DNA from: Balneola sp.
GTDB lineage: Bacteria; Bacteroidota; Rhodothermia; Balneolales; Balneolaceae
Length of the DNA: 64,000 nt
Direction of reading: 5' to 3'
NCBI GenBank assembly: GCA_028284195.1
Contig: JANQSE010000008.1
Coordinates: 62,001 to 126,000 of the forward strand
In this document: positions 49,495 to 61,484 of the stretch, in pieces
Position numbering within the stretch: position 1 is the stretch's first letter
Layout: every line of letters starts with the position of its first letter
The notes under the pieces: generated by a model
Told to the model about the DNA's origin: nothing
Seen by the model: the letters and a program-made list of their open reading frames with translations, nothing else
The model's database searches: none
Program-made: the position numbers and the translations under genes

Positions 49495-52392
49495 CTACGC
49501 TTCTACTTCCTCAATGGAATACGCATCAATTGGAATACACGAACAGATCAGATTCCGGTCTCCGTAGGCATCATCTACTCTGGAAGTGCTTGGCCAGAAT
49601 TTGTTTTCCCGAAGATGTTCGAGCGGAAACACTCCTTTTTCTCTTGAGTATTCTCTGTTCCAGCTTTCGTCCATAACCACCCGCATGGTGTGGGGAGCAT
49701 GCTTTAGAACGTTACTTGTTTTATCTGCTTTGCCTTCTTCAATTTCACGGATCTCATTTCTGATTTCGATCATGGCATCGCAGAACCGATCAAGTTCTTC
49801 TTTACTTTCGCTTTCAGTTGGCTCAATCATCAAAGTACCTGCCACCGGGAAGCTCATTGTTGGAGCATGGAACCCGTAATCCATAAGCCGTTTTGCAATA
49901 TCTACCGCTTCTATTCCGGCGGTTTGCTTAAATGGACGAAGATCTGCAATAAACTCATGAGCAGAACGTCCGGTTTTACCGGTGTATAAAATCGGATAAT
50001 AATCTTTCAACCTGTCTTTGATGTAATTGGCGTTCAAGATCGCCATTTGGGTGGCATCAGTAAGCCCCTCTTCTCCCATCATTGCAATGTATGCGTACGA
50101 AATAGTTAGAATGCTTGCACTGCCGTACGGTGCAGCCGAAATGGCGGGAATTGCCTGGGTTCCTCCTGTTTCAACAACGGGATGACCCGACAAAAACGGA
50201 GCTAAATGTTGTGCCACACCAATCGGCCCCATTCCCGGCCCGCCCCCGCCGTGGGGAATACAAAATGTTTTGTGCAGATTCAGGTGGCATACATCTGCGC
50301 CGATTTCTCCCGGGCTGGTTAGCCCAACCTGAGCATTCATGTTAGCTCCATCCATATACACCTGCCCGCCGTGCTTGTGAATCAGATCACAAATGTCTTT
50401 AATGCGATGTTCAAACACGCCGTGCGTGGATGGATATGTAACCATTAATGCAGCCAGACGATCGCTGTACTTCTCAACTTTTTCCTTAAGATCATCCATG
50501 GAGATATTCCCATGTTTATCACATTGAGTTACCACTACATCCATCCCGGCCATAACCGCACTTGCCGGATTCGTTCCATGAGCAGAAGACGGAATTAAAG
50601 CCACATTTCTATGATGATCTCCTCTGCTTTGATGATATGCCCGAATGGTCATTAATCCCGCATACTCGCCTTGAGCACCCGAATTAGGCTGCATAGAAAC
50701 TTTGTGGAATCCGGTAATCTCACTCAGCCATGCATCCAGTTCTTCGAACAATTGATGATATCCCCGGGCTTGATCTGCCGGCACAAATGGATGAATTTGC
50801 CCGAACTCAGGCCATGTAAGTGGAATCATTTCAGCAGTTGCATTCAGCTTCATCGTACAGGAACCCAAAGAAATCATAGAATGAACCAGTGAAAGGTCTT
50901 TGTTTTCCAACCGCTTCATGTAGCGGAGCATTTCGTGCTCGGTGTGATAAAGGCTAAATACCGGATGATCCAGGTACCCCGAAGTTCTGGTTAAAGCATC
51001 CGGCAGCTTTACTTCTATCTCCTCTGCATGCGCATGCACGTCAAAATTCGATGTTCGCCCTTCTGCTTCGGCAAAAACGGAAAGCACTGCTTTTACATCA
51101 TCAAGTTCCTTCGCTTCATCAAAAGAGATACCTATTCTGCCATCACCAAAATAGCGGAAGTTGATTTTATTAGCCTCAGCTACTTTTCGAACTTTCTTTT
51201 CATTCGCTTTTATGGTAATGGTATCAAAAAATGCATCTGTTTCAACCGCCACACCCATCGCTTCCAGTCCGGCCTTTGTGAGTTTGGTTAGGCCATATAT
51301 TTTGGCGGCAATTTTCTTTAATCCTTTGGGCCCATGATATACCCCATACATCCCAGCGATTACAGCCAGCAAAACCTGTGCAGTACAAATATTTGAAGTA
51401 GCCTTTTCCCGGCGAATATGCTGTTCCCGGGTTTGAAGTGCCATCCGGTACGCAGGTTTACCTTCCGCATCTTGTGTTACTCCGATTATTCTTCCCGGAA
51501 TTTGGCGCTTAAAGTCTTCTTTGGTGGCAAAATAAGCAGCATGGGGGCCTCCATAACCCATTGGTACCCCAAAACGCTGGGTAGTTCCAACCACAACGTC
51601 TGCACCCATTTCTCCCGGAGGGGTAAGCAATGTTAAGCTTAATAAATCGGCGGCAACTACACTATATACTCCATTTTCGTGTGCAGCTGTAATCAAATCA
51701 GAATAATTTTCTACAGAGCCATCGGTAGCCGGGTATTGGAGCAGCATCGCATATAATTTTGGATCGGTTACATCCAGCGATGTATGATCACCTACTACAA
51801 CCTCAACCCCAATTGGTTCGGATCTGGTTTTTAACACATCAATGGTTTGTGGATGGCAGAGCTCACTTACAAAAAATACATTCGCTTCTTTACGCTTTGC
51901 ACCTTTTCGCTGTCCAAATAACATGCTCATGGCTTCAGCGACAGCTGTGCCTTCGTCCAGTAAAGATGCGTTAGCCAATTCCATTCCTGTTAAATCACTA
52001 ACCATCGTCTGGAAATTGATCAACGCCTCTAGTCGCCCTTGTGCAATTTCTGCCTGATAAGGTGTATATGCAGTGTACCAGGCGGGATTTTCCAAAATAT
52101 TTCTCTTTATCACATTAGGCACATGGGTATCATAATATCCCATCCCGATGAATGATTTGAATATTTTGTTTTTTGAAGCCAGCACCCTAAAGCTTTCTAA
52201 AAAGTCAACTTCGCTTTGTGCCTTTGGTAAATGTAGTTTTTCAGTAAGCCTGATATTTTCCGGAATAGTTTCATCAATTAACTGGTCAATGGAATCTGCC
52301 TTAATAACCTCCAGCATATCTTTAGTTGACTGTTCATTGTTCCCGTTATGTCGATGTGCGAAAATTTCTTTTCCAAAGTTGATGGTACTCAA
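49495..52392 (-). CDS. gcvP: Glycine dehydrogenase (decarboxylating), P protein
   Basis: P protein of the glycine cleavage system, a PLP-dependent decarboxylase. The 965 residues form the fused two-lobe type (like E. coli), not GcvPA/GcvPB. The N-lobe opens with [17 protein letters not shown] and YIGMGYYDT-like [12 protein letters not shown]. The C-lobe holds the PLP lysine in [17 protein letters not shown]. The start is TTG at 52392: no ATG fits, an in-frame TGA lies 14 codons upstream, and an AGGA ribosome site sits 6 bases before it. gcvT and gcvH are not in the window, and I see no glycine riboswitch in the 200-base upstream region. Confidence 0.96.
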
Positions 52393-52593
52393 ATCTGATT
52401 CCTGATTATTCGTGATTAAGATCTGTGAGGCTCAAATGTTGATAGCAATAAACATGTGATTAAAAGCTCCCAAAATTACAAAAAAACAGAATATAAATAA
52501 GCGTAAAAACCTGTTCGAAAAATACTATTTCTCCCTTTTTTTTGATTTATTACAACCCTGATTTTTTAAACTATTATAAGGAAGGTTAAAACA

Positions 52594-54585
52594 ATGAAAA
52601 CACCCCGGACAACAAGTGTTCTTGCACTTATAATTATAGCTTTAATAGTTGCTCCAGCCTCAGCTCAGGATACTGATAATGGCCTCCGAATCGTTCTGGA
52701 TAATGAAAACATCACGCTTGATGTTGGACAAGAAGTACAGCTAAACGCTAAACTTATAAATGCAGATGGCGAAGTTCAGCCGGACACTATGCTGTATTTT
52801 TCCAGAGCCCGCCGCTCTTTATCTGTTACACGAAACGGATTAATGAAAGCATTGCAACCCGGCTCGTTCACCATAATTGTATATAAGACTGCTCAGGGAG
52901 ATCATCCGGTAATGCGAAAAAATATAACCGTGAATGTAAACTACCCGGAATTGGATCGCATCGTTTTCAACGACATTCCTAAAAAGATGTATGCAGGCAC
53001 ATCCCTCCAGGTAGAAACACGCATATACGATGTACTCGATTTTAAACGCGATGATCTTGAAATTTCAGATTTTTCATCTTCCAATACCAAAGTTGCCGAA
53101 GTAGATCGCTTTGGAAACTTAAAGGCAAAATCTCCCGGTAAATTCAAACTTACTGCAAAAATAGAAGGCATTACAGAAACCTGGGAAGGGCATGTCGTTA
53201 AAAATCCGGTTACCTCAGTAGAAGTTTCCTTAGATGATGATATCGTCAGAACAGGCGATGTACTAAATATCAAAGCAGTAGCAAAAGATAAAAAAGGCAA
53301 TGTTGTTGAAGATGCGCCATTCGTGTATTCATTTACTGCTCGTCCGGATGATTCTCGTGGAGAGGCTGCACCCGCTCAAATTGAACAAAACGGAAAGTTT
53401 GTAGCCAATAAATCAGGGTTATATACCATTATGGTACGCAATGCTAATACATTTGCTGAAACCACCGTCAAAATCAATCCAAGAAATGTTCGAAGAGAAA
53501 TTGAAATTCTCGGGAATGCTAAAGTAACAGATGTGCCAACCTCTGACCTTTGGGTTTGGGAAGGCGTTGACGGCAGAGACTATGCCGCAACCGGAACCCA
53601 CGTTGGCCGGGGCGAAGCATTCTTTTGGGATGTAACCGATCCAACCAATATGATCGCGATTGACACCATTACCGTAGATGCCCGTGTAGTAAATGATGTG
53701 AAAGTTTCTGAAGATGGGCGAATTGCAGTGATTTCCCGGGAAGGAGCATCTAACCGAAAAAACGGGCTCGTAATTCTTGACGTAACTAATCCAAGCGATG
53801 TTAAAATTCTATCTCGTTTCGATGATGGATTGACTGGTGGTGTTCATAATGTGTTCATCTACGAAAACCACATTTACGCAATAAATAATGGGCGACGTTA
53901 CGATATCATAAATATCGAAGACCCAACAAATCCCTACCGTGTCAGCCAGTTTGAGCTGGACACCCCTGGCCATGCTGTCCATGATGTGTGGATCGAAGAC
54001 GGCATCGCGTATTCATCAAACTGGGCAGATGGTGTTGTTGCTGTTGATGTGGGCAGCAAGCTGGGCGGCGATATGCAAAGCATAGGGGGCTCGCCCGAAA
54101 ATCCCAAATTACTGGGAAGCTTTACTTACCCAAGTGGATGGAACCATGCCGCATTTCCGTTCAAAAGTAAATCATCTGATAATTTTTATATCGCGGCCGG
54201 AGATGAAGCATTTCCAGGAGGCATACCCGCAGGCTGGATACATTTCTTTAAGCTTAATAATTGGGAAGAAGCTGAGGAAGTGGCTCGCTATGAAGTACCC
54301 GAAGCCGGAACGCATAATATCTGGATAAAGGATGACATCATGTACGTAGCTTATTACCAGGGAGGACTTCGCATAGTAGATGTTTCCGGTGAATTAATGG
54401 GCAACTTATATGATCAGGGACGCGAAATAGCTAAATTTCTGCCCAGTGTTAATGAGGGCATCGGACCAAATTCGCCTATGTCGTGGGGCCCGCAACCGTA
54501 TAAAGATATGATCTTTGTTTCTGATATGAATTCAGGACTTTGGGCCATTAAACTTAAGCCTGTTCAGGGAACAGCAAGCAATTAA
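52594..54585 (+). CDS. Secreted Ig-like/LVIVD-repeat surface protein 1
   Basis: A 663-residue exported protein. The signal peptide runs to about Ala24 (APASA-Q). Residues about 30-290 look like two to three Big_2-type Ig-like domains (NENITLDVGQEVQLNAKL, VRTGDVLNIKAVAKDKKG). Residues about 305-655 are LVIVD-repeat propeller blades, for example NGLVILDVTNP, VHNVFIYENHIYAINN, YDIINIEDPTNPYRV and GGLRIVDVSGE. A strong AAGGAAGG ribosome site (52578-52585) lies 8 bases from the ATG. No type IX sorting domain is seen at the C-terminus. Function unknown; it ends 6 bases before its paralog and heads a three-gene unit. Confidence 0.88.
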   Translation: MKTPRTTSVLALIIIALIVAPASAQDTDNGLRIVLDNENITLDVGQEVQLNAKLINADGEVQPDTMLYFSRARRSLSVTRNGLMKALQPGSFTIIVYKTAQGDHPVMRKNITVNVNYPELDRIVFNDIPKKMYAGTSLQVETRIYDVLDFKRDDLEISDFSSSNTKVAEVDRFGNLKAKSPGKFKLTAKIEGITETWEGHVVKNPVTSVEVSLDDDIVRTGDVLNIKAVAKDKKGNVVEDAPFVYSFTARPDDSRGEAAPAQIEQNGKFVANKSGLYTIMVRNANTFAETTVKINPRNVRREIEILGNAKVTDVPTSDLWVWEGVDGRDYAATGTHVGRGEAFFWDVTDPTNMIAIDTITVDARVVNDVKVSEDGRIAVISREGASNRKNGLVILDVTNPSDVKILSRFDDGLTGGVHNVFIYENHIYAINNGRRYDIINIEDPTNPYRVSQFELDTPGHAVHDVWIEDGIAYSSNWADGVVAVDVGSKLGGDMQSIGGSPENPKLLGSFTYPSGWNHAAFPFKSKSSDNFYIAAGDEAFPGGIPAGWIHFFKLNNWEEAEEVARYEVPEAGTHNIWIKDDIMYVAYYQGGLRIVDVSGELMGNLYDQGREIAKFLPSVNEGIGPNSPMSWGPQPYKDMIFVSDMNSGLWAIKLKPVQGTASN

Positions 54586-54591
54586 TCTTAA

Positions 54592-56616
54592 ATGAATCAA
54601 AACATGAAAAAACCAAACCAACTTACTTCAATACTGTGTGTTTCTTTATCTGTAATAATTTTTATGAGCAGTAACGCATTCGCTCAGGAAAAGAAAATCG
54701 TTTTTGAAAACGATAAACTGATTATGAAACTAAACGAAGAAACCAAGATTAACGCCAAAGTTGTAGGTGCCAATGGAGAAGCCACATCAGATTCTTTGAT
54801 TTTCTTTACCAGAAACAGAAGATCTTTGCAGGTTACACTTAATGGGCATGTAAAAGCCTTAGACTCAGGCTCTTTCACCATTTTTGCAAGAACAGTAACT
54901 GCAAACAGAGCAGAAAGAATCTCAGCCGTACTTCCTGTTGAGGTTGCCTACCCTCCCGTTAAATCTGTCACATTTACTAATGTACCTAGTAATTTTTACA
55001 ACACTACGACTGTTAAGTTAAATCTTGAAATAGTTGATGAAGCAGGTAAAATACGAGACAATGTGCAGGTAATGCTTTCCAGCTCAAATCCTGATGTAGC
55101 AGGTGTAGATGCATTCAATAACGTAGTTGCTCATAAAAAAGGGAACTTTACCATAACGGCCAAAGCTGAAAACGTTGCTACCACCTGGAAAGGTAAAGTA
55201 GTTAATAACCCTGTCGACAGAATGGAGCTAACTCATAACTACGATGGTAAAACCATTCGAACAGGCGATGTGGTTACATTTGCAGCAATGGCTAAAACCG
55301 GTAAAGGCAAAATGGTAGATGATGCCCCTGTTACCTACACCTACATTGCAGAGCCCGATGACCAATTAGGCCAGGGTACCTCAGCCCAGATTGCACAAAG
55401 CGGAAAATTTGTAGCCAGTAAACCGGGTACATATACTATTGTTGCCACATCAGGAAACCGCTCAACCAGAACCACTATAAAAGCGGTTCCAAGAAATGTG
55501 CAGCGCCCTTTAACTTTGGTTGGTAAAGGGATTGTAAGCCACACCCGGACTTCTGACCTTTGGGTTTGGGAAGGCGTTGACGGCAGAGACTATGCGGTTA
55601 CCGGAACATGGGGTGGATATGGCGAAGCCATTTTCTGGGACGTAACCGACCCTTCAAAAATAATTCCAATCGATACTGTTACCGTTGATGCAAGAACCGT
55701 AAATGATGTGAAAGTTTCTGAAGATGGACGAATTGCTGTAATTACCCGTGAAGGCGCTTCTGATCGTAAGAATGGGATCATTATTCTGGATGTTACCAAT
55801 CCCAGAGACGTTAAAATCCACTCTGAGTACACCCAGGATTTAACAGGTGGTGTGCATAATGCATTTATTTATGACAACCATGTTTACGCCGTAAATAATG
55901 GACGTAAGTACGATATCATTAATATTGAAGATCCCAAAAACCCAAGAACAGTTGGGGTATTTGAATTAGATACTCCAAGCCATTCTATCCATGATGTGTG
56001 GATCCAGGATGGTATTGCATATTCATCGAACTGGAGCGATGGAATTATTGCTGTAGATATTGGAAGCAACGCCAGTGCAGACCTGCCCGGAGCAGGCGGC
56101 TCTCCTGAAAATCCCGTTAAGCTCGGAAGCTATGCCTACCCAAGTGGATGGAACCATGCCGCATTCCCATTTAAGAGTGAATCTACCGGCGACTTTTATG
56201 TGATCGGTGGTGACGAAGCTTTCCCTTACGGGTTAAATGTAAACGGTGCTAACAGAGCAGCAGGCTGGCTTCACTTCATCAAATTTGATGATTGGGATTC
56301 ACCTGCAGAAGTAGCCCGTTACCAAGTACCAGAGGCCGGAACCCATAACTACTGGGTTGAAGGCGACATCCTTTATGTAGCCATGTATAATGGTGGTGTG
56401 CGTGTTGTTGATATTTCAGGCGAACTGATGGGAGATTTGTATCAGCAAGGGCGCGAAATCGCATCCTTCTACCCATCTGACAGCAACGCTTTCATCCCTA
56501 ATGCTACTTTTACCTGGGGGCCGCAACCTTATAAAGGCCATATTTTCCTTTCTGACTGGAACTCAGGGATATGGGCATTAAAACTTGGAGAAAGCACTTC
56601 TCAAGGAACTAATTAA
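54592..56616 (+). CDS. Secreted Ig-like/LVIVD-repeat surface protein 2 (paralog)
   Basis: A 674-residue protein, the same architecture and order as the upstream gene and clearly its tandem duplicate. Either the first ATG or the fourth downstream codon (54604, MKKPNQL) may start it. Signal peptide to about Ala30 (SSNAFA-Q). Ig-like domains span about 35-300. LVIVD blades follow, with TSDLWVWEGVDGRDYAV, NGIIILDVTNPRDV, YDIINIEDPKNPRTV and GGVRVVDISGEL. It is slightly longer in the last blades (EAFPYGLNVNGANRAAG). Several nucleotide tracts are identical to the first gene, including 44 consecutive bases. Function unknown. Confidence 0.88.
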   Translation: MNQNMKKPNQLTSILCVSLSVIIFMSSNAFAQEKKIVFENDKLIMKLNEETKINAKVVGANGEATSDSLIFFTRNRRSLQVTLNGHVKALDSGSFTIFARTVTANRAERISAVLPVEVAYPPVKSVTFTNVPSNFYNTTTVKLNLEIVDEAGKIRDNVQVMLSSSNPDVAGVDAFNNVVAHKKGNFTITAKAENVATTWKGKVVNNPVDRMELTHNYDGKTIRTGDVVTFAAMAKTGKGKMVDDAPVTYTYIAEPDDQLGQGTSAQIAQSGKFVASKPGTYTIVATSGNRSTRTTIKAVPRNVQRPLTLVGKGIVSHTRTSDLWVWEGVDGRDYAVTGTWGGYGEAIFWDVTDPSKIIPIDTVTVDARTVNDVKVSEDGRIAVITREGASDRKNGIIILDVTNPRDVKIHSEYTQDLTGGVHNAFIYDNHVYAVNNGRKYDIINIEDPKNPRTVGVFELDTPSHSIHDVWIQDGIAYSSNWSDGIIAVDIGSNASADLPGAGGSPENPVKLGSYAYPSGWNHAAFPFKSESTGDFYVIGGDEAFPYGLNVNGANRAAGWLHFIKFDDWDSPAEVARYQVPEAGTHNYWVEGDILYVAMYNGGVRVVDISGELMGDLYQQGREIASFYPSDSNAFIPNATFTWGPQPYKGHIFLSDWNSGIWALKLGESTSQGTN

Positions 56617-56625
56617 TCACACAAT

Positions 56626-56646
56626 AAAGGGGTCTCCAGCCCCTTT
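56626..56646 (+). terminator. Hairpin between surface protein 2 and the YncE-like gene
   Basis: AAAGGGG / CCCCTTT stem with a 7-base loop but only three T after it. It may be a weak or attenuating terminator that lowers expression of the third gene. Confidence 0.35.
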
Positions 56647-56674
56647 AACTCCTAAAAACAGATATGCTATTACT

Positions 56675-57910
56675 ATGAGTGTTTTAGATCGTATTAAAAA
56701 TTTCCATTGTAATTCTAGGTGTATAATTGCAGTTCTTGCTCTAATGATGACTACATCCCAAAGCTTTGCACAAGAATATTATGTGTATGTAGCTGCTGAG
56801 TCTGAAGACGAAGTCCACCTCGTTCACTTCAATGGCAAAACTAACGAAGCAAAAATTGCCAAAACCATTGAGGTTGGCCGTTACCCTACCGAAACCGATG
56901 GGCCACATGGAATCAATATTTCGCCGGATGGAGAATACTGGTTTCTTTCTATTGCTCATGGCAACCCTTATGGGATGCTTGCTAAATACAAAACTGGAAC
57001 TGATGAACTTGTTGGTACTACCGATCTGGGAATGTTTCCTGCCAGTATGGAAATTTCTAAATCAACAGGGTTACTCTATGTAGTCAATTTCAACCTGCAT
57101 GGCGAGATGATTCCAAGCACGGTATCAGTAGTGGATCCTGATTTAATGGAAGTAGTTACCGAGATAAAAACCGGAGTTATGCCTCATGGTTCGCGTATCT
57201 CTGATGATGGCTCAAAGCAATACCATGTTTCTATGATGACGGACGAGCTTTATGAAATCAATACGGCAGGCCTGAATGTAAATCGCATTTTAAGCCTGAA
57301 AAAACAAGCCATGAACATGGATGGCAAGGATCATTCAAAACATGGTATGGATAAAGATAAAAAAGAGCGATCAGACCACGAGAAGAAAGGGGAAGATCAT
57401 TCCGGCCATGATATGGACAACATGAAGGAAGTGAAAAAGGATGGAATGAAAATGATGCACCATAAACCAGAAGTTAAACCAACATGGGCAGATCCCCATC
57501 CAACAAAACCTCTTGTTTATGTAGCCGGCAATGGATCGAATGAAATCATAGAAATAGATACTGAAAAGTGGGAAATCACCCGCCGCTTTAAAGCCGGCAA
57601 AGCTCCTTATAATTTAGAAGTATCGCACGATGGCAAACTTTTAGTTGCAAGTTATAAAGGCGAGGCTGCCTCTGGAATTTTTGACCTTAAATCAGGTAAA
57701 GAAATTGCTAAGATTGAAAACAGCCGAAGAATTACGCATGGCGTTGCTATTTCAAAAGACAACCGCTACGCTTTTCTATCTGTAGAAGGCATTGGCGGTG
57801 AACCAGGTTCGGTTGACGTTATTGACTTAAAGACAAAAAAACGAGTCGCTGTTATAGAAACAGGAAAACAAGCGGGCGGCATTGTTTTCTGGAAACAAAC
57901 AGCACCATAG
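56675..57910 (+). CDS. Secreted YncE-like beta-propeller protein with His/Met-rich insertion
   Basis: A 411-residue protein from the ATG at 56675; the frame opens 30 residues earlier inside the previous gene. The signal peptide ends near TSQSFA-Q. Seven-bladed YncE-type propeller blades: EYYVYVAAESEDEVHLV, HGINISPDGEYWFLSI, PHGSRISDDGSKQY, PYNLEVSHDGKLLVASY and HGVAISKDNRYAFLSV. Between blades a low-complexity loop (residues about 212-264) carries 7 His and 8 Met, with words DHSKHGMDKD, DHSGHDMDNM and MKMMHHKP. These resemble copper/silver- or zinc-binding tails. It sits in the same run as the LVIVD genes and is followed by a terminator and a ZIP transporter. Confidence 0.85.
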   Translation: MSVLDRIKNFHCNSRCIIAVLALMMTTSQSFAQEYYVYVAAESEDEVHLVHFNGKTNEAKIAKTIEVGRYPTETDGPHGINISPDGEYWFLSIAHGNPYGMLAKYKTGTDELVGTTDLGMFPASMEISKSTGLLYVVNFNLHGEMIPSTVSVVDPDLMEVVTEIKTGVMPHGSRISDDGSKQYHVSMMTDELYEINTAGLNVNRILSLKKQAMNMDGKDHSKHGMDKDKKERSDHEKKGEDHSGHDMDNMKEVKKDGMKMMHHKPEVKPTWADPHPTKPLVYVAGNGSNEIIEIDTEKWEITRRFKAGKAPYNLEVSHDGKLLVASYKGEAASGIFDLKSGKEIAKIENSRRITHGVAISKDNRYAFLSVEGIGGEPGSVDVIDLKTKKRVAVIETGKQAGGIVFWKQTAP

Positions 57911-57930
57911 AATAAGCTAAACAACTTATT

Positions 57931-57965
57931 AAAGTTCTTTCATCTAAACGGAAGAGCTTTTTTAT
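57931..57965 (+). terminator. Intrinsic terminator of the surface-protein unit
   Basis: AAAGTTCTTTC / GGAAGAGCTTT stem (two G-T wobbles) with an 8-base loop and T-run, 21 bases past the YncE-like stop. Confidence 0.7.
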
Positions 57966-58094
57966 TTCCAGCAATAAATGAGCAGAGACTTTGTGTCCGG
58001 CGTTATCTCTCTTGCTTCCATAACTCAGCTGAATCTATTTTTATAAAATCCGGATCAGATGGATTATAATATTTAGTCTTGGCTAAAAATTTAT

Positions 58095-58102
58095 TAAGTT
58101 TG
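58095..58102 (+). promoter_or_regulatory. TAnnTTTG-like -7 element upstream of ZIP transporter
   Basis: TAAGTTTG with a TTTA at the ideal 19-base distance upstream (58072-58075). It lies 14 bases before the ATG, so the leader would be very short. Confidence 0.4.
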
Positions 58103-58115
58103 TTTAAAAAAGAAT

Positions 58116-58946
58116 ATGGAATTTTTGCCCGACTTTTTCTACGAACTTAATCCAATAATCCAAGCCCTTTTAGGAGGGCTTTTTACCTGGGCAGTAACCG
58201 CGCTTGGTGCTTCGCTGGTTTTCTTTACAAAAAAAGTAAATTATACTTTACTGGATAGTATGATGGGCTTTGCAGCTGGCGTAATGATAGCAGCAAGCGT
58301 TTGGTCTTTGATTATTCCCTCTATTGATATGGCTGAAGCACAGGGATCGATCCCCTGGTTACCTGCTGTAATCGGCTTTTTGGGCGGAGGTATTTTTCTT
58401 CGAATCTGTGATCAATACTTACCTCATTTACACTTAGGAATGGAAACATCTGAAGCTGAGGGCGTACCAACAAGCTGGAGACGATCTACCCTTCTGGTTC
58501 TTGCAATAACACTGCATAACATACCTGAAGGCTTAGCCGTAGGTGTTTTATTTGGAGCGGCGGCTTCCGGAGTTGACCCTACAGGAACAGCATCTGTTGC
58601 TGCAGCTATTGCGTTAGCTCTAGGAATTGGAATTCAAAACTTCCCGGAAGGAATGGCTGTTTCAATGCCTTTACGCCGTGAAGGAGTTAGTGTAAAGAAG
58701 AGTTTTTGGTATGGTCAGATTTCAGGAGTTGTGGAACCAATATCTGCAGTTATTGGAGCTGCTGCTGTAATTTTTATTGCTCCAATTTTGCCATACGCAT
58801 TGGCCTTTGCAGCCGGGGCAATGATCTACGTGGTTGTTGAAGAATTAATACCCGAAAGCCAACATCATGGAAACACCGATATTGCTACTTTAGGCACTAT
58901 GGTTGGTTTCTGTGTTATGATGGTACTTGATGTATCTCTTGGATAA
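58116..58946 (+). CDS. ZIP family divalent metal transporter
   Basis: A 276-residue membrane protein with eight predicted helices, of the ZIP (GufA-like) family that moves Zn and other divalent metals into the cytoplasm. The binuclear metal site is visible as HNIPEG (His134, Glu138) in TM4 and QNFPEG (Asn175, Glu178) in TM5. The loop [10 protein letters not shown] supplies two extra His. The family transports Zn2+, Fe2+, Mn2+ or others; metal specificity cannot be read. It follows the secreted propeller genes on the same strand after a terminator, with its own candidate promoter. Confidence 0.93.
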
Positions 58947-58964
58947 AGGCGCATAGTGTAATAG

Positions 58965-59081
58965 ATGTCAGATAATTCATTGATTGTTTTTGTCATTTCT
59001 GTGATAAGCCCGCCTATCATAGCATCTGCCTGTATTCTAAAAACCCGTCATAGCTCAAATAAAGAAAAGAAATGTTCTTAG
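58965..59081 (+). CDS. Possible 38-residue membrane microprotein
   Basis: ATG at 58965 opens a 38-codon frame with one hydrophobic helix (LIVFVISVISPPIIASACIL), a positively charged tail RHSSNKEKK, and two Cys. It begins 18 bases after the ZIP stop and overlaps the convergent arsC stop by 4 bases. Microproteins that modulate metal pumps have this shape, but a chance frame is equally possible. No strong ribosome site. Confidence 0.25.
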   Translation: MSDNSLIVFVISVISPPIIASACILKTRHSSNKEKKCS

Positions 59082-59500
59082 TTTAATAAGCTAAGCTCTT
59101 CTAACAACGTGCGGGAGTAATCACGAATTTCATCCCGTACTTTTTTGAAAACAGCCAGTTTTTCCTCTTCCGAACCCTCAGCTTTTGCAGGATCAGTAAA
59201 ATTGTGATGCTCTTTTCTTGCAGTGGTAGGAAATACAGGACAACGTTCTTTTGCATGATCACATACTGTCACAACCAAATCAAAATTTATAGTGAGGTAT
59301 TCATTGATGTTATTTGAAGTATGGTTTGAAATATCAACTCCAGCTTGCCTCATTACCTTAATTGCAGTTTCATTAACCCCATGTGTTTCCACACCTGCGC
59401 TATAAACTTCAACTTTTTCTTTTCCAAAATAACGCAGCCAGCCTTCCATCATTTGGCTTCTGCAACTGTTGCCTGTACACAGAACTAAGATTTTTCTCAT
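59078..59500 (-). CDS. arsC: Thioredoxin-coupled arsenate reductase (ArsC/LMW-PTP family)
   Basis: A 140-residue low-molecular-weight phosphatase fold. The P-loop CTGNSCRS (Cys8, Cys13) and the redox pair Cys80/Cys87 (VVTVCDHAKERCP) give the three-cysteine relay of Staphylococcus-type ArsC, which reduces arsenate to arsenite at the expense of thioredoxin. The ATG at 59500 is preferred (MRKILVLCTG); upstream extension to 59569 is unsupported. No arsB, acr3 or arsR is seen in the window. It is the last gene of a - strand run beginning with the UMF1 transporter. Confidence 0.92.
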   Translation of the reverse strand: MRKILVLCTGNSCRSQMMEGWLRYFGKEKVEVYSAGVETHGVNETAIKVMRQAGVDISNHTSNNINEYLTINFDLVVTVCDHAKERCPVFPTTARKEHHNFTDPAKAEGSEEEKLAVFKKVRDEIRDYSRTLLEELSLLN

Positions 59501-59599
59501 TTCTCCAATCCGGTTAAAAATTTCTGCCATATTATACGCAAATAACTCCATTGCTATGTTATCAAACAAAAATATTACCCACAGAAAACAATATGGTTT

Positions 59600-60046
59600 C
59601 TATGATATTTGGAAAGGCTGGCCAATGCTTAGTACCATGCAAACTGCACTATCCGGGCATATATCCTGAAATTGCGGAAGTTTATGAATGGCTGTTGGAG
59701 CCTCCGTTTTTAAAATTGAAACAAATCCAAGCTTCTTGAAAAATTCTTCGGCATCGGTTGTTAATAAATAGATCTTTTTGATTTCTCTTTTTTGAGCAAT
59801 TTCAAGAACATTCCTGGTAACTTTCTCTCCTACACCTTTCCCGCGATGCTCTTCGCGAACAGCCAAAGATCTAAGCAGCCCATATTCACCGTAAATTTCG
59901 ATGGCACCGCATGCGATCAGTACATCGTTCAAATATTCGGTCTCAAAATGGATATTCTTCCAGTCTATGTCTGAAGTTGGCAGTCCTGCATTCGCCAACA
60001 GCAAAATGATATCGTCCTTATAAGCTTTGAAGTCATTATCCATCAT
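59600..60046 (-). CDS. arsN2: ArsN2-like GNAT acetyltransferase
   Basis: A 148-residue GNAT protein. The acetyl-CoA loop is EEHRGKGVGEKV, preceded by GLLRSLAV. Downstream YLLTTDAEEFFKKLGFVSI and QFQDICPDSAVCMVLS match the ArsN2 pattern, including the conserved CPxSA near the C-terminus. ArsN2-type proteins are associated with arsenic resistance operons, and arsC follows 99 bases downstream, supporting the assignment. Start: ATG at 60046 (or 60043; GTG at 60049). It overlaps the upstream PH gene by 11 bases. Confidence 0.82.
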   Translation of the reverse strand: MMDNDFKAYKDDIILLLANAGLPTSDIDWKNIHFETEYLNDVLIACGAIEIYGEYGLLRSLAVREEHRGKGVGEKVTRNVLEIAQKREIKKIYLLTTDAEEFFKKLGFVSILKTEAPTAIHKLPQFQDICPDSAVCMVLSIGQPFQIS

Positions 60047-61484
60047 CACGAGGAATTTGAGTGTTTCCTGTAAGCATCCATTTTCTTATTCGGGAAGTGT
60101 CAGATTTTTCAAGATCGGTAATGTTAAGTGCTATCCCTTTAGCCCCCGAAGCAGCCGTAACGGTAAGGCTGGCTAGTTGCTTGCGCTCCTGAAATGGATT
60201 TGTTCTTTCATCAATAACCTGCACCCTTTTGCGTTTTATAAAAGCAGTTTTTCTGTTCAGATTTCTAAAGCGCAAAGCCATCATTTCGGGATCAATATAC
60301 AAACCTGCATCTTTGAATCTGAAAAGTCCAATAACTGTAGCAGGTATAACTAAAAAAGCTAACAACCATCCCCATTCCCAAAAATACCACGCTAATGGAG
60401 TAGCGATTATCAACAGATAATTAGGGCGCCTCAAATATCGAAAAAAAGACCTTTCTGGTGGTTTTACATCCAATTCAGGAATATGAAAATCAGTTAAAAA
60501 CCGATCAAAAAACAATTTCAGTCTTTTTTTGGCGATAAATGGAACCAATACTATGGAACGTTCTTTTTGATTTAGTTCAAAACCTGCGCTTTCTACATAA
60601 AGCATTCCATGCCCCAGGGGCTGCCGCAAAATTCCTTCTACAAAACGAATGGCCTGTATTCTATTGAAAGGAATGGTTATGTGTTTTTTTTCTATAAGCC
60701 CCGACCGGATAAGGAGCTCTTTTTCTGTTTTTTTTAGGCTGAAGTCAGAGTAACTGAAAATCACTCCTAGAAAAGAAAATGCCCATGATACTACCAAAAT
60801 TATTATTACTACCGTAATGATAAAGGTTACATCATTTAACCCCGGTAATGCTTCTTTCGCATACTCGATACTTTCCTCATTTATCACGGAGTCTAGCTGC
60901 CCGGACAACGCACCTAGTATAGAAGCGATCAACCCAAAGTTGCCCGAAGTGAATGCTGCAATTACCAGTTCTTTTGTGCTGATATTCCACTCATCTAAAA
61001 ACTCACTTTCAGCCGTTTCTTCCACATCTTCAATCAACGCAGATTTGGCTTTATTTGATCTTAGATTTTTTTTGAGCTCTTCTGCTTCTTCAAAAGTAAT
61101 GGCATTGATAGTTGCACTTTCAGTTCCTCCACCGGCTGTTTTTACCTCTACCTTCACCAATCCAAAAACCCGTTGAACCAACCCCTCCGTAATATCAATA
61201 ACCTGAATACGATCCTTACTCATAAAAATATTCTTGCGGACGAAGACTCCTTTTTTAATCTGCAGCTCTTCTTCAATTACCCGGTATTGGAACCTGAACC
61301 AGCCTAAAATTCCACCTAAAAGAGCCAGCATTATCGTTCCAATAAGAATATATAGCAAATAGCCTTCACCGGGCTCCTGCGTACCAACAAATACCACTAT
61401 TAAAAATGTGATGAAATTTTGACGAAGGATCATGAATAACCGGTCAACTGCAGCTGCCCAGTGCTGCCTTCTGAATTCAGACAT
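60036..61484 (-). CDS. Large bacterial PH-domain membrane protein (YdbT-like)
   Basis: A 482-residue protein from the ATG at 61484, preceded by an AAAGAGG ribosome site; the open frame extends to 61565 but overlaps the previous gene. Hydrophobic pairs (about 20-60, 200-260 and 365-400) alternate with three bacterial pleckstrin-homology (bPH_2) domains. Each has a pattern such as VIEEELQIKKGVFVRKNIFM, SRxQ-type RIQVIDITEGLVQRVFGL, and IPFNRIQAIRFVEGILRQPLGHG. Role unknown. It overlaps the small PH gene by 8 bases and arsN2 by 11. Confidence 0.88.
   Translation of the reverse strand: MSEFRRQHWAAAVDRLFMILRQNFITFLIVVFVGTQEPGEGYLLYILIGTIMLALLGGILGWFRFQYRVIEEELQIKKGVFVRKNIFMSKDRIQVIDITEGLVQRVFGLVKVEVKTAGGGTESATINAITFEEAEELKKNLRSNKAKSALIEDVEETAESEFLDEWNISTKELVIAAFTSGNFGLIASILGALSGQLDSVINEESIEYAKEALPGLNDVTFIITVVIIILVVSWAFSFLGVIFSYSDFSLKKTEKELLIRSGLIEKKHITIPFNRIQAIRFVEGILRQPLGHGMLYVESAGFELNQKERSIVLVPFIAKKRLKLFFDRFLTDFHIPELDVKPPERSFFRYLRRPNYLLIIATPLAWYFWEWGWLLAFLVIPATVIGLFRFKDAGLYIDPEMMALRFRNLNRKTAFIKRKRVQVIDERTNPFQERKQLASLTVTAASGAKGIALNITDLEKSDTSRIRKWMLTGNTQIPRDDG

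Follow-up and report, generated by a model that had tools for sequence, protein, structure and literature searches.

Exported propellers of the YVTN/YncE and LVIVD types are common in bacteria and poorly understood. Among the described propellers with a bound metal, AztD has a zinc site of three His in its central pore and disordered His-rich tracts, as reported in the accessible part of PMC6689063, and as the zinc metallochaperone of the AztABCD system it passes its metal to a partner (PMC7463823, accessible part). Thiocyanate dehydrogenase is described, again in the accessible text, as holding three copper ions in the central tunnel of its propeller (PMC9456337), and the title of the structure paper on the Sphingobium sp. 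TCM1 phosphotriesterase (Sb-PTE, haloalkylphosphorus hydrolase), as given in the reference list of PMC11656708, names a binuclear metal centre in a seven-bladed propeller. Here we analyze a gene cluster at positions 52594-58946 (all + strand) of a 64,000-nucleotide stretch of Balneola sp. DNA, referred to as the window, from a draft assembly of 2.68 Mb in 19 contigs (98.5% complete). The cluster encodes two LVIVD propeller proteins (LVIVD1 and LVIVD2), a YncE-like propeller and a ZIP transporter. We tentatively favor, at somewhat less than an even chance, an undescribed two-protein periplasmic module built from two different propellers, LVIVD and YncE-like, with putative metal sites, in which ZIP would play no part. 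Both protein families are already known and we have not found their pairing described; as a reading of this DNA made from its sequence only had supposed, no named system with this layout was found in the openly available literature on LVIVD or choice-of-anchor B.

The LVIVD-YncE-like pair is the unit, and the link between its members is stronger than that reading had claimed when it grouped the three exported genes. All genome scans stayed within one phylum. In a phylum sample of 394 genomes, 43 carry the LVIVD gene, and 42 of these, and no others, carry the YncE-like gene. In the window's own family (f1), 44 of 92 genomes are YncE-like positive at E <= 1e-50, with 13 genomes that have weak matches (best 9.5e-6) excluded, and all 44 have an LVIVD gene. 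LVIVD is found in 45; the extra genome (G087) is 86% complete and its contig ends ~50 bases past the LVIVD match. Three further families behave alike: the YncE-like genomes of f11 (5/5) and f12 (7/7) also carry LVIVD, and in the distant and patchy f36 separate searches of 60 genomes for the two genes match the identical 14. This brings the total to 70 of 70 YncE-like genomes with LVIVD, in four families. The pair is adjacent and on the same strand in 62 of the 70 (44/44 in f1, 5/5 in f11 and 13/14 in f36), with the same usual gene order; it is non-adjacent in G485 and in all seven f12 genomes. Some YncE-like matches were split in the f1 scan, so several of the measured gaps are too large. These 70 genomes share ancestry and are not 70 independent events. 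The best evidence against a mere inheritance of neighbors comes from f36, and f12 shows co-occurrence without linkage. Seven of the eight genomes in the window's genus have two LVIVD copies, and G035 has three. The named loci closest to LVIVD2 belong to Balneola and Balneolaceae genomes (82-83% identity), and a scan of close-relative contigs yielded 11 loci, of which ten carry the label Balneola or Balneolaceae and the eleventh that of a Rhodothermia bacterium. Searches of plasmids returned remote relatives only, all below 60% identity.

The co-occurrence that holds for LVIVD and the YncE-like gene does not extend to ZIP. Searches for ZIP (presence threshold E <= 1e-60) and LVIVD covered 89 of the 92 f1 genomes, and ZIP is present in 82 of them, at similar frequency with the pair (42/44) and without it (40/45). 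Two genomes (G031 and G032) have the pair and no ZIP at this threshold. In genomes lacking the pair, gcvP lies <=1.8 kb from ZIP in 10 of 13 loci examined and was not found within ~9 kb in the remaining three, and in G043 ZIP adjoins gcvP although the pair sits on another contig. From the position of ZIP beside gcvP in these genomes, the default order seems to be gcvP-ZIP, and in most pair-bearing genomes the pair fits into this order. A minus-strand open reading frame (ORF) of ~240 amino acids follows the YncE-like gene in 10 of 13 relatives' loci examined (L031:13405-14124 and equivalents); it has no Pfam match and is missing in the window (57911-58115). In 8 of 11 ZIP-bearing loci it lies between ZIP and the pair, which is not so in the other three nor in the window. 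No ZIP was found around the YncE-like genes of f11 (5 genomes), f12 (7) and f36 (14) in stretches of 3.7-19.9 kb searched by blastp (E 1e-4) against ORFs of at least 80 amino acids. The sequence-only reading had proposed that a divalent metal is captured or stored at the surface and handed to the adjacent ZIP for import. ZIP does lie within ~4.1 kb of the pair, on the same contig and strand, in 41 of the 44 pair-bearing f1 genomes. The similar frequencies, the gcvP-ZIP order, the intervening ORF, the two pair-bearing genomes lacking ZIP and the three families all speak against the proposal, which is largely refuted and which we now hold to be highly improbable. As ZIP is about as common without the pair, linked to gcvP without it and not found near it in f11, f12 and f36, it was rejected as a module member and appears to be a bystander by accident of gene order.

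The LVIVD proteins had been suggested to scaffold or sense at the surface; kinship with a metalloenzyme seems the better description. In the PDB, a profile built from ten LVIVD relatives (the two window proteins among them) matched only Sb-PTE (5hrm, E 2e-11; 5ioj, E 4.1e-11). The predicted model of LVIVD2 (predicted local distance difference test, pLDDT, 83.2; predicted template modeling score, pTM, 0.72) has 5hrm as its top fold match (Z 32.2, 2.8 A, 334 residues aligned, 19% identity). Since WD40 propellers are tied with it (Z 31.8 and below, ~10% identity), the fold alone is not decisive. Nine residues are invariant in 69 aligned LVIVD2 homologues (D322, D372, H422, H467, D468, H522, E542, H585 and D655), and His, Glu and Asp positions are found again in relatives from haloarchaea and rhizobia. 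A broad LVIVD set has nine invariant columns, among them H267, H346, E362, H415 and D495 (numbering of L129), which align with H467, H522, E542, H585 and D655 of LVIVD2; the H422 position is nearly invariant in this set, and these six LVIVD2 residues are all fully conserved in the 69 closer homologues. The Sb-PTE metal ligands we take to be E201, H258, H389, E407 and H475. The blade-6 His of the rhizobial relative (H415) aligns with the His counted as H475 of 5ioj, and the His of the blade-4 'HD' aligns with H317 in the profile match. His residues are found at or near the starts of the equivalent strands in blades 3, 4 and 6 (that of H258 is off by two), in an alignment that misses blade 5 and with presumed ligand identities. 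The invariant polar cluster of LVIVD, at strand starts and at loops which propeller topology would place on one face, may be a metal site.

For the YncE-like protein, pocket and loop statistics are based on an alignment of 64 distinct sequences. Fourteen residues are identical in 64 of 64: E42, S43, H78, H95, H142, H171, M187, M188, N286, N313, K328, H355, E371 and Q399. The pocket, equally constant, comprises five His, two Met, two Glu, two Asn, Lys and Gln. The window's protein has 10 His at well-occupied columns, five of them invariant and the other five 33-97% conserved. Its AlphaFold2 model (pLDDT 80.5, pTM 0.77) has a strand order that fits seven blades. When propeller topology is applied to the strand list of this model, the invariant residues fall at the starts of first strands or at or just past the ends of second strands, positions which are predicted to open on one face of the propeller. 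This pocket is a putative metal site, and judging from the sequences metal binding by the pair is likely.

The combination of His, Met, Lys and Glu in the invariant pocket would also suit a different role, in which a copper cluster in the pore would make the YncE-like protein a redox enzyme like thiocyanate dehydrogenase or nitrous oxide reductase, and LVIVD would mature or assist it. The model aligns with nitrous oxide reductases at Z 34.0-35.0 and with thiocyanate dehydrogenase (8z75) at Z 33.3 over 315 residues, and the three-copper tunnel of the latter offers a precedent. Moreover, all four LVIVD loci of f12 (L117-L120) have genes of an iron-sulfur/NrfD-like membrane oxidoreductase complex nearby (family matches for L117 only), and a cytochrome oxidase subunit I gene is found in L117 as well. 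However, non-copper propellers match the model as well or better, including 1l0q (Z 41.1) and 6-phosphogluconolactonase (Z 37.5). A NosZ profile match is absent, hhalign to six Balneolaceae NosZ proteins gave a probability of 10.6, the L-NosZ model scored 46 vs 700 bits, and no cytochrome or cupredoxin was present among nine window proteins scanned. We regard such a redox enzyme as quite unlikely. A kinship of the YncE-like protein with NosZ or hydrazine synthase was considered and rejected, with weak generic propeller matches only. As a separate observation, the NosZ propeller domain occurs in 52 of 89 f1 genomes and in only 1 of 8 genomes of the window's genus (loci L121-L126). A bound heme d1 or related cofactor is suggested by the Cytochrom_D1 match (PF02239, 29.6 vs 25.5 bits). 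This family cross-matches ordinary YVTN propellers, and the genome's match to NirJ of d1 biosynthesis is weak (42.7 vs 515 bits) and no better than in all 14 control genomes, which reach an equal level. Heme d1 is therefore not supported and its chance seems very small.

The part of the YncE-like protein singled out by the sequence-only reading was its His/Met-rich loop, which is real and improbable by chance; it proves accessory, the constant part of the protein being the pocket. The loop spans 54 residues (211-264), among them 7 His and 8 Met, and an equally dense window arose in 8 of 20000 shuffles of residues 33-411. The loop bridges blades 3 and 4, from the final strand of the one to the first of the other, would by topology open on the same face as the pocket, and is mostly predicted to be disordered (residues 213-261 below pLDDT 50). 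At least one HxxM is present in 25 of 39 f1 and 11 of 14 f36 sequences and in 0 of 11 from f11 and f12, where the loop is cut to 6-7 residues. Other variants are His-rich with one Met (L112) or have no His or Met (L070). Thus, the loop is optional. HxxM sites of SilE peptides bind Ag+ (PMC10080550, accessible part), and SilE is described in the accessible part of PMC5008109 as a disordered periplasmic metal sponge. For the literal DHSxM motif as a copper signature no relevant literature support was found, so the soft-metal argument draws only on HxxM (SilE, silver). The paired Met and the HxxM loops make copper or a related metal the likeliest for the YncE-like protein; since f11, f12 and some Balneolaceae lack the loop, the most metal-like part of the protein, copper is a guess.

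In the module that we favor, the LVIVD protein would carry an Sb-PTE-like binuclear site and would probably be a hydrolase, a candidate activity. The His/Met pocket of the YncE-like protein may bind a soft or borderline metal such as copper, which the flexible HxxM-rich loop on the pocket face, where present, could collect for it. As a dedicated partner of LVIVD, the YncE-like protein would either load LVIVD with metal or act on the same substrate, which is the simplest division of labor; we infer the metals, the substrate and which way the partnership runs. A more specific version, in which a novel copper propeller site of five His and two Met (with Lys and Glu), fed by a swappable HxxM loop, loads or works with an Sb-PTE-like binuclear hydrolase, strikes us as unlikely, though worth keeping in view.

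Several points weigh against this module. No metal was observed, and the pockets were read from conservation, coordinate-free predicted models and topology. Direct phmmer with LVIVD2 and subfamily-only profiles did not find Sb-PTE in the PDB, and the sequence homology was reached via intermediates only. The Sb-PTE ligand assignments are presumed, and H258 aligns two residues off the position of the window's H422. The partnership has its irregularities: LVIVD and YncE-like genes lie on different contigs in f12, and ~0.76 kb separate them in G024 and G025. The dependence is one-sided: G326 (f12) has LVIVD without a YncE-like gene, G451, G485 and G497 carry extra LVIVD copies that lie apart from the YncE-like gene, and remoter LVIVD relatives occur outside any such pair searched for. 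Finally, the loop is lost or replaced, being absent from f11, f12 and some Balneolaceae, while the pocket stays the same, and conserved polar faces also bind organic ligands. The last two points suit an alternative in which the pockets bind lactonase-, sugar- or peptide-like organic ligands instead of metals, with the loop as a separate detoxification-type metal sponge. The YncE-like protein clears the Pfam Lactonase cut-off (32.2 vs 21.7), and SilE supplies the precedent for the sponge. On the other hand, it would in our judgement be unusual for a sugar or lactone pocket to have five invariant His and an adjacent pair of invariant Met, and the LVIVD relatives are homologous to Sb-PTE. We consider organic ligands an improbable explanation, albeit one that deserves attention.

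The features of the cluster are collected in Table 1. The tight order of the three exported genes on one strand stands as first read, and the ORFs, strands and intergenic gaps (6 bases between the LVIVD genes and 58 between LVIVD2 and the YncE-like ATG) were confirmed. The start of the YncE-like gene in the ORF list (TTG 56585) overlaps LVIVD2 and is an unlikely start, and ATG 56675 is preferred. An N-terminal hydrophobic segment ending in A/Q can be read in all three proteins, which look exported. The naming of two Ig-like/LVIVD proteins is borne out for LVIVD1, which clears the Pfam cut-offs for Big_2 (33.4 vs 22.8 bits) and LVIVD PF08309 (21.5 vs 20.2). LVIVD2 clears neither (17.6 and 15.4), though it is a close paralogue, and both fall below the choice_anch_B TIGR04312 cut-off of 100 bits (64.9 for LVIVD1 and 74.1 for LVIVD2). 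The ZIP protein clears PF02535 (78.9 vs 35.1 bits). The cluster of exported genes was said to end at a terminator: a stem-loop with T tail is present, but such sites are at chance count locally (11 in 50000-61000 against a shuffle mean of 10.0, standard deviation 3.2).

Table 1. Features of the examined cluster, in window coordinates
Feature	Positions	Strand	Basis
LVIVD1, exported; Ig-like (Big_2) domains and LVIVD / choice-of-anchor-B-like propeller	52594..54585	+	ORF, profile scores
LVIVD2, tandem paralogue of LVIVD1 (55% identical); propeller from ~residue 301	54592..56616	+	
YncE-like propeller, 411 amino acids from ATG, predicted seven-bladed	56675..57910	+	
His/Met-rich loop of the YncE-like protein, residues 211-264, accessory	57305..57466	+	
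Stem-loop with T tail, weak intrinsic-terminator-like, after the YncE-like gene	57931..57960	+	
ZIP transporter (ZupT-like), neighbor, judged outside the module	58116..58946	+	

Other neighbors were recorded. Beside ZIP lies an arsenate-reductase-like small phosphatase gene (59078-59569, - strand; TIGR02691 168 vs cut-off 174.3 bits), and such a gene is likewise near the locus in several relatives. In f11 (L071-L075), a MerA/lipoamide-dehydrogenase-like FAD oxidoreductase is directly upstream of LVIVD in 5 of 5 loci and a binding-protein ABC transporter further upstream in 4 of 5. These were judged to be single-family synteny with no clear substrate and were not used as a functional clue. Downstream of the f12 YncE-like genes (L076-L082), two constant genes are present in 7 of 7 loci, one a DUF58 gene (scanned in L082 only) and the other presumably BatA-like.

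The sequence-only reading is right in its unit and its metal hint, but it chose the wrong neighbor and, within the YncE-like protein, the more variable part. With one subfamily of each propeller in strict partnership and candidate ligands named by residue, "function unknown" labels turn into a set that can be tested at the bench. If metal binding is true, it would also hint at the role of this choice-of-anchor-B-like subfamily, and if the novel copper site is true, it would be a metal propeller that exists only alongside another metal propeller.

Among known systems, Sb-PTE resembles the LVIVD proteins as the sole PDB sequence match of the profile of their relatives. The LVIVD proteins differ from it in the Ig-like domains in front, the low identity in the fold alignment, N371/D372 of LVIVD2 by blade register at the place of the presumed ligand E201, the pairing with a second propeller and the absence of any known phosphotriester link. 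E. coli YncE and the YVTN/S-layer propellers (3vgz, 1l0q) share the fold and a distant similarity (1l0q, E 4.1e-12) with the YncE-like protein, which nevertheless scores below the YncE models PF21783 (23 vs 27.1 bits) and, by far, the equivalog NF052280 (31.7 vs 400 bits). Nitrous oxide reductase and thiocyanate dehydrogenase are copper enzymes with the same propeller fold and a metal-bearing central pore. Beyond generic propeller matches, no sequence relationship of the YncE-like protein to NosZ was detected, and it has no match to a cupredoxin (CuA-type) domain; for thiocyanate dehydrogenase the likeness is a fold match only. With AztD the YncE-like protein shares export, the propeller, His in the central pore and a disordered His-rich tract. 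The AztD model NF038015 did not match the window's protein at E 1 and gave an f11 homologue 29 vs 400 bits. A scan of nine window proteins found no aztABC-type ABC transporter, annotation in the other loci being limited to a minority of genes. AztD has eight blades and a conserved disulfide, whereas the YncE-like protein has a predicted seven and no Cys in its mature part, and its pocket, unlike that of AztD, includes two Met, Lys and Glu. If metal binding is true, this pocket would add a new propeller-based metal site to the zinc site of AztD and the copper sites of nitrous oxide reductase and thiocyanate dehydrogenase.

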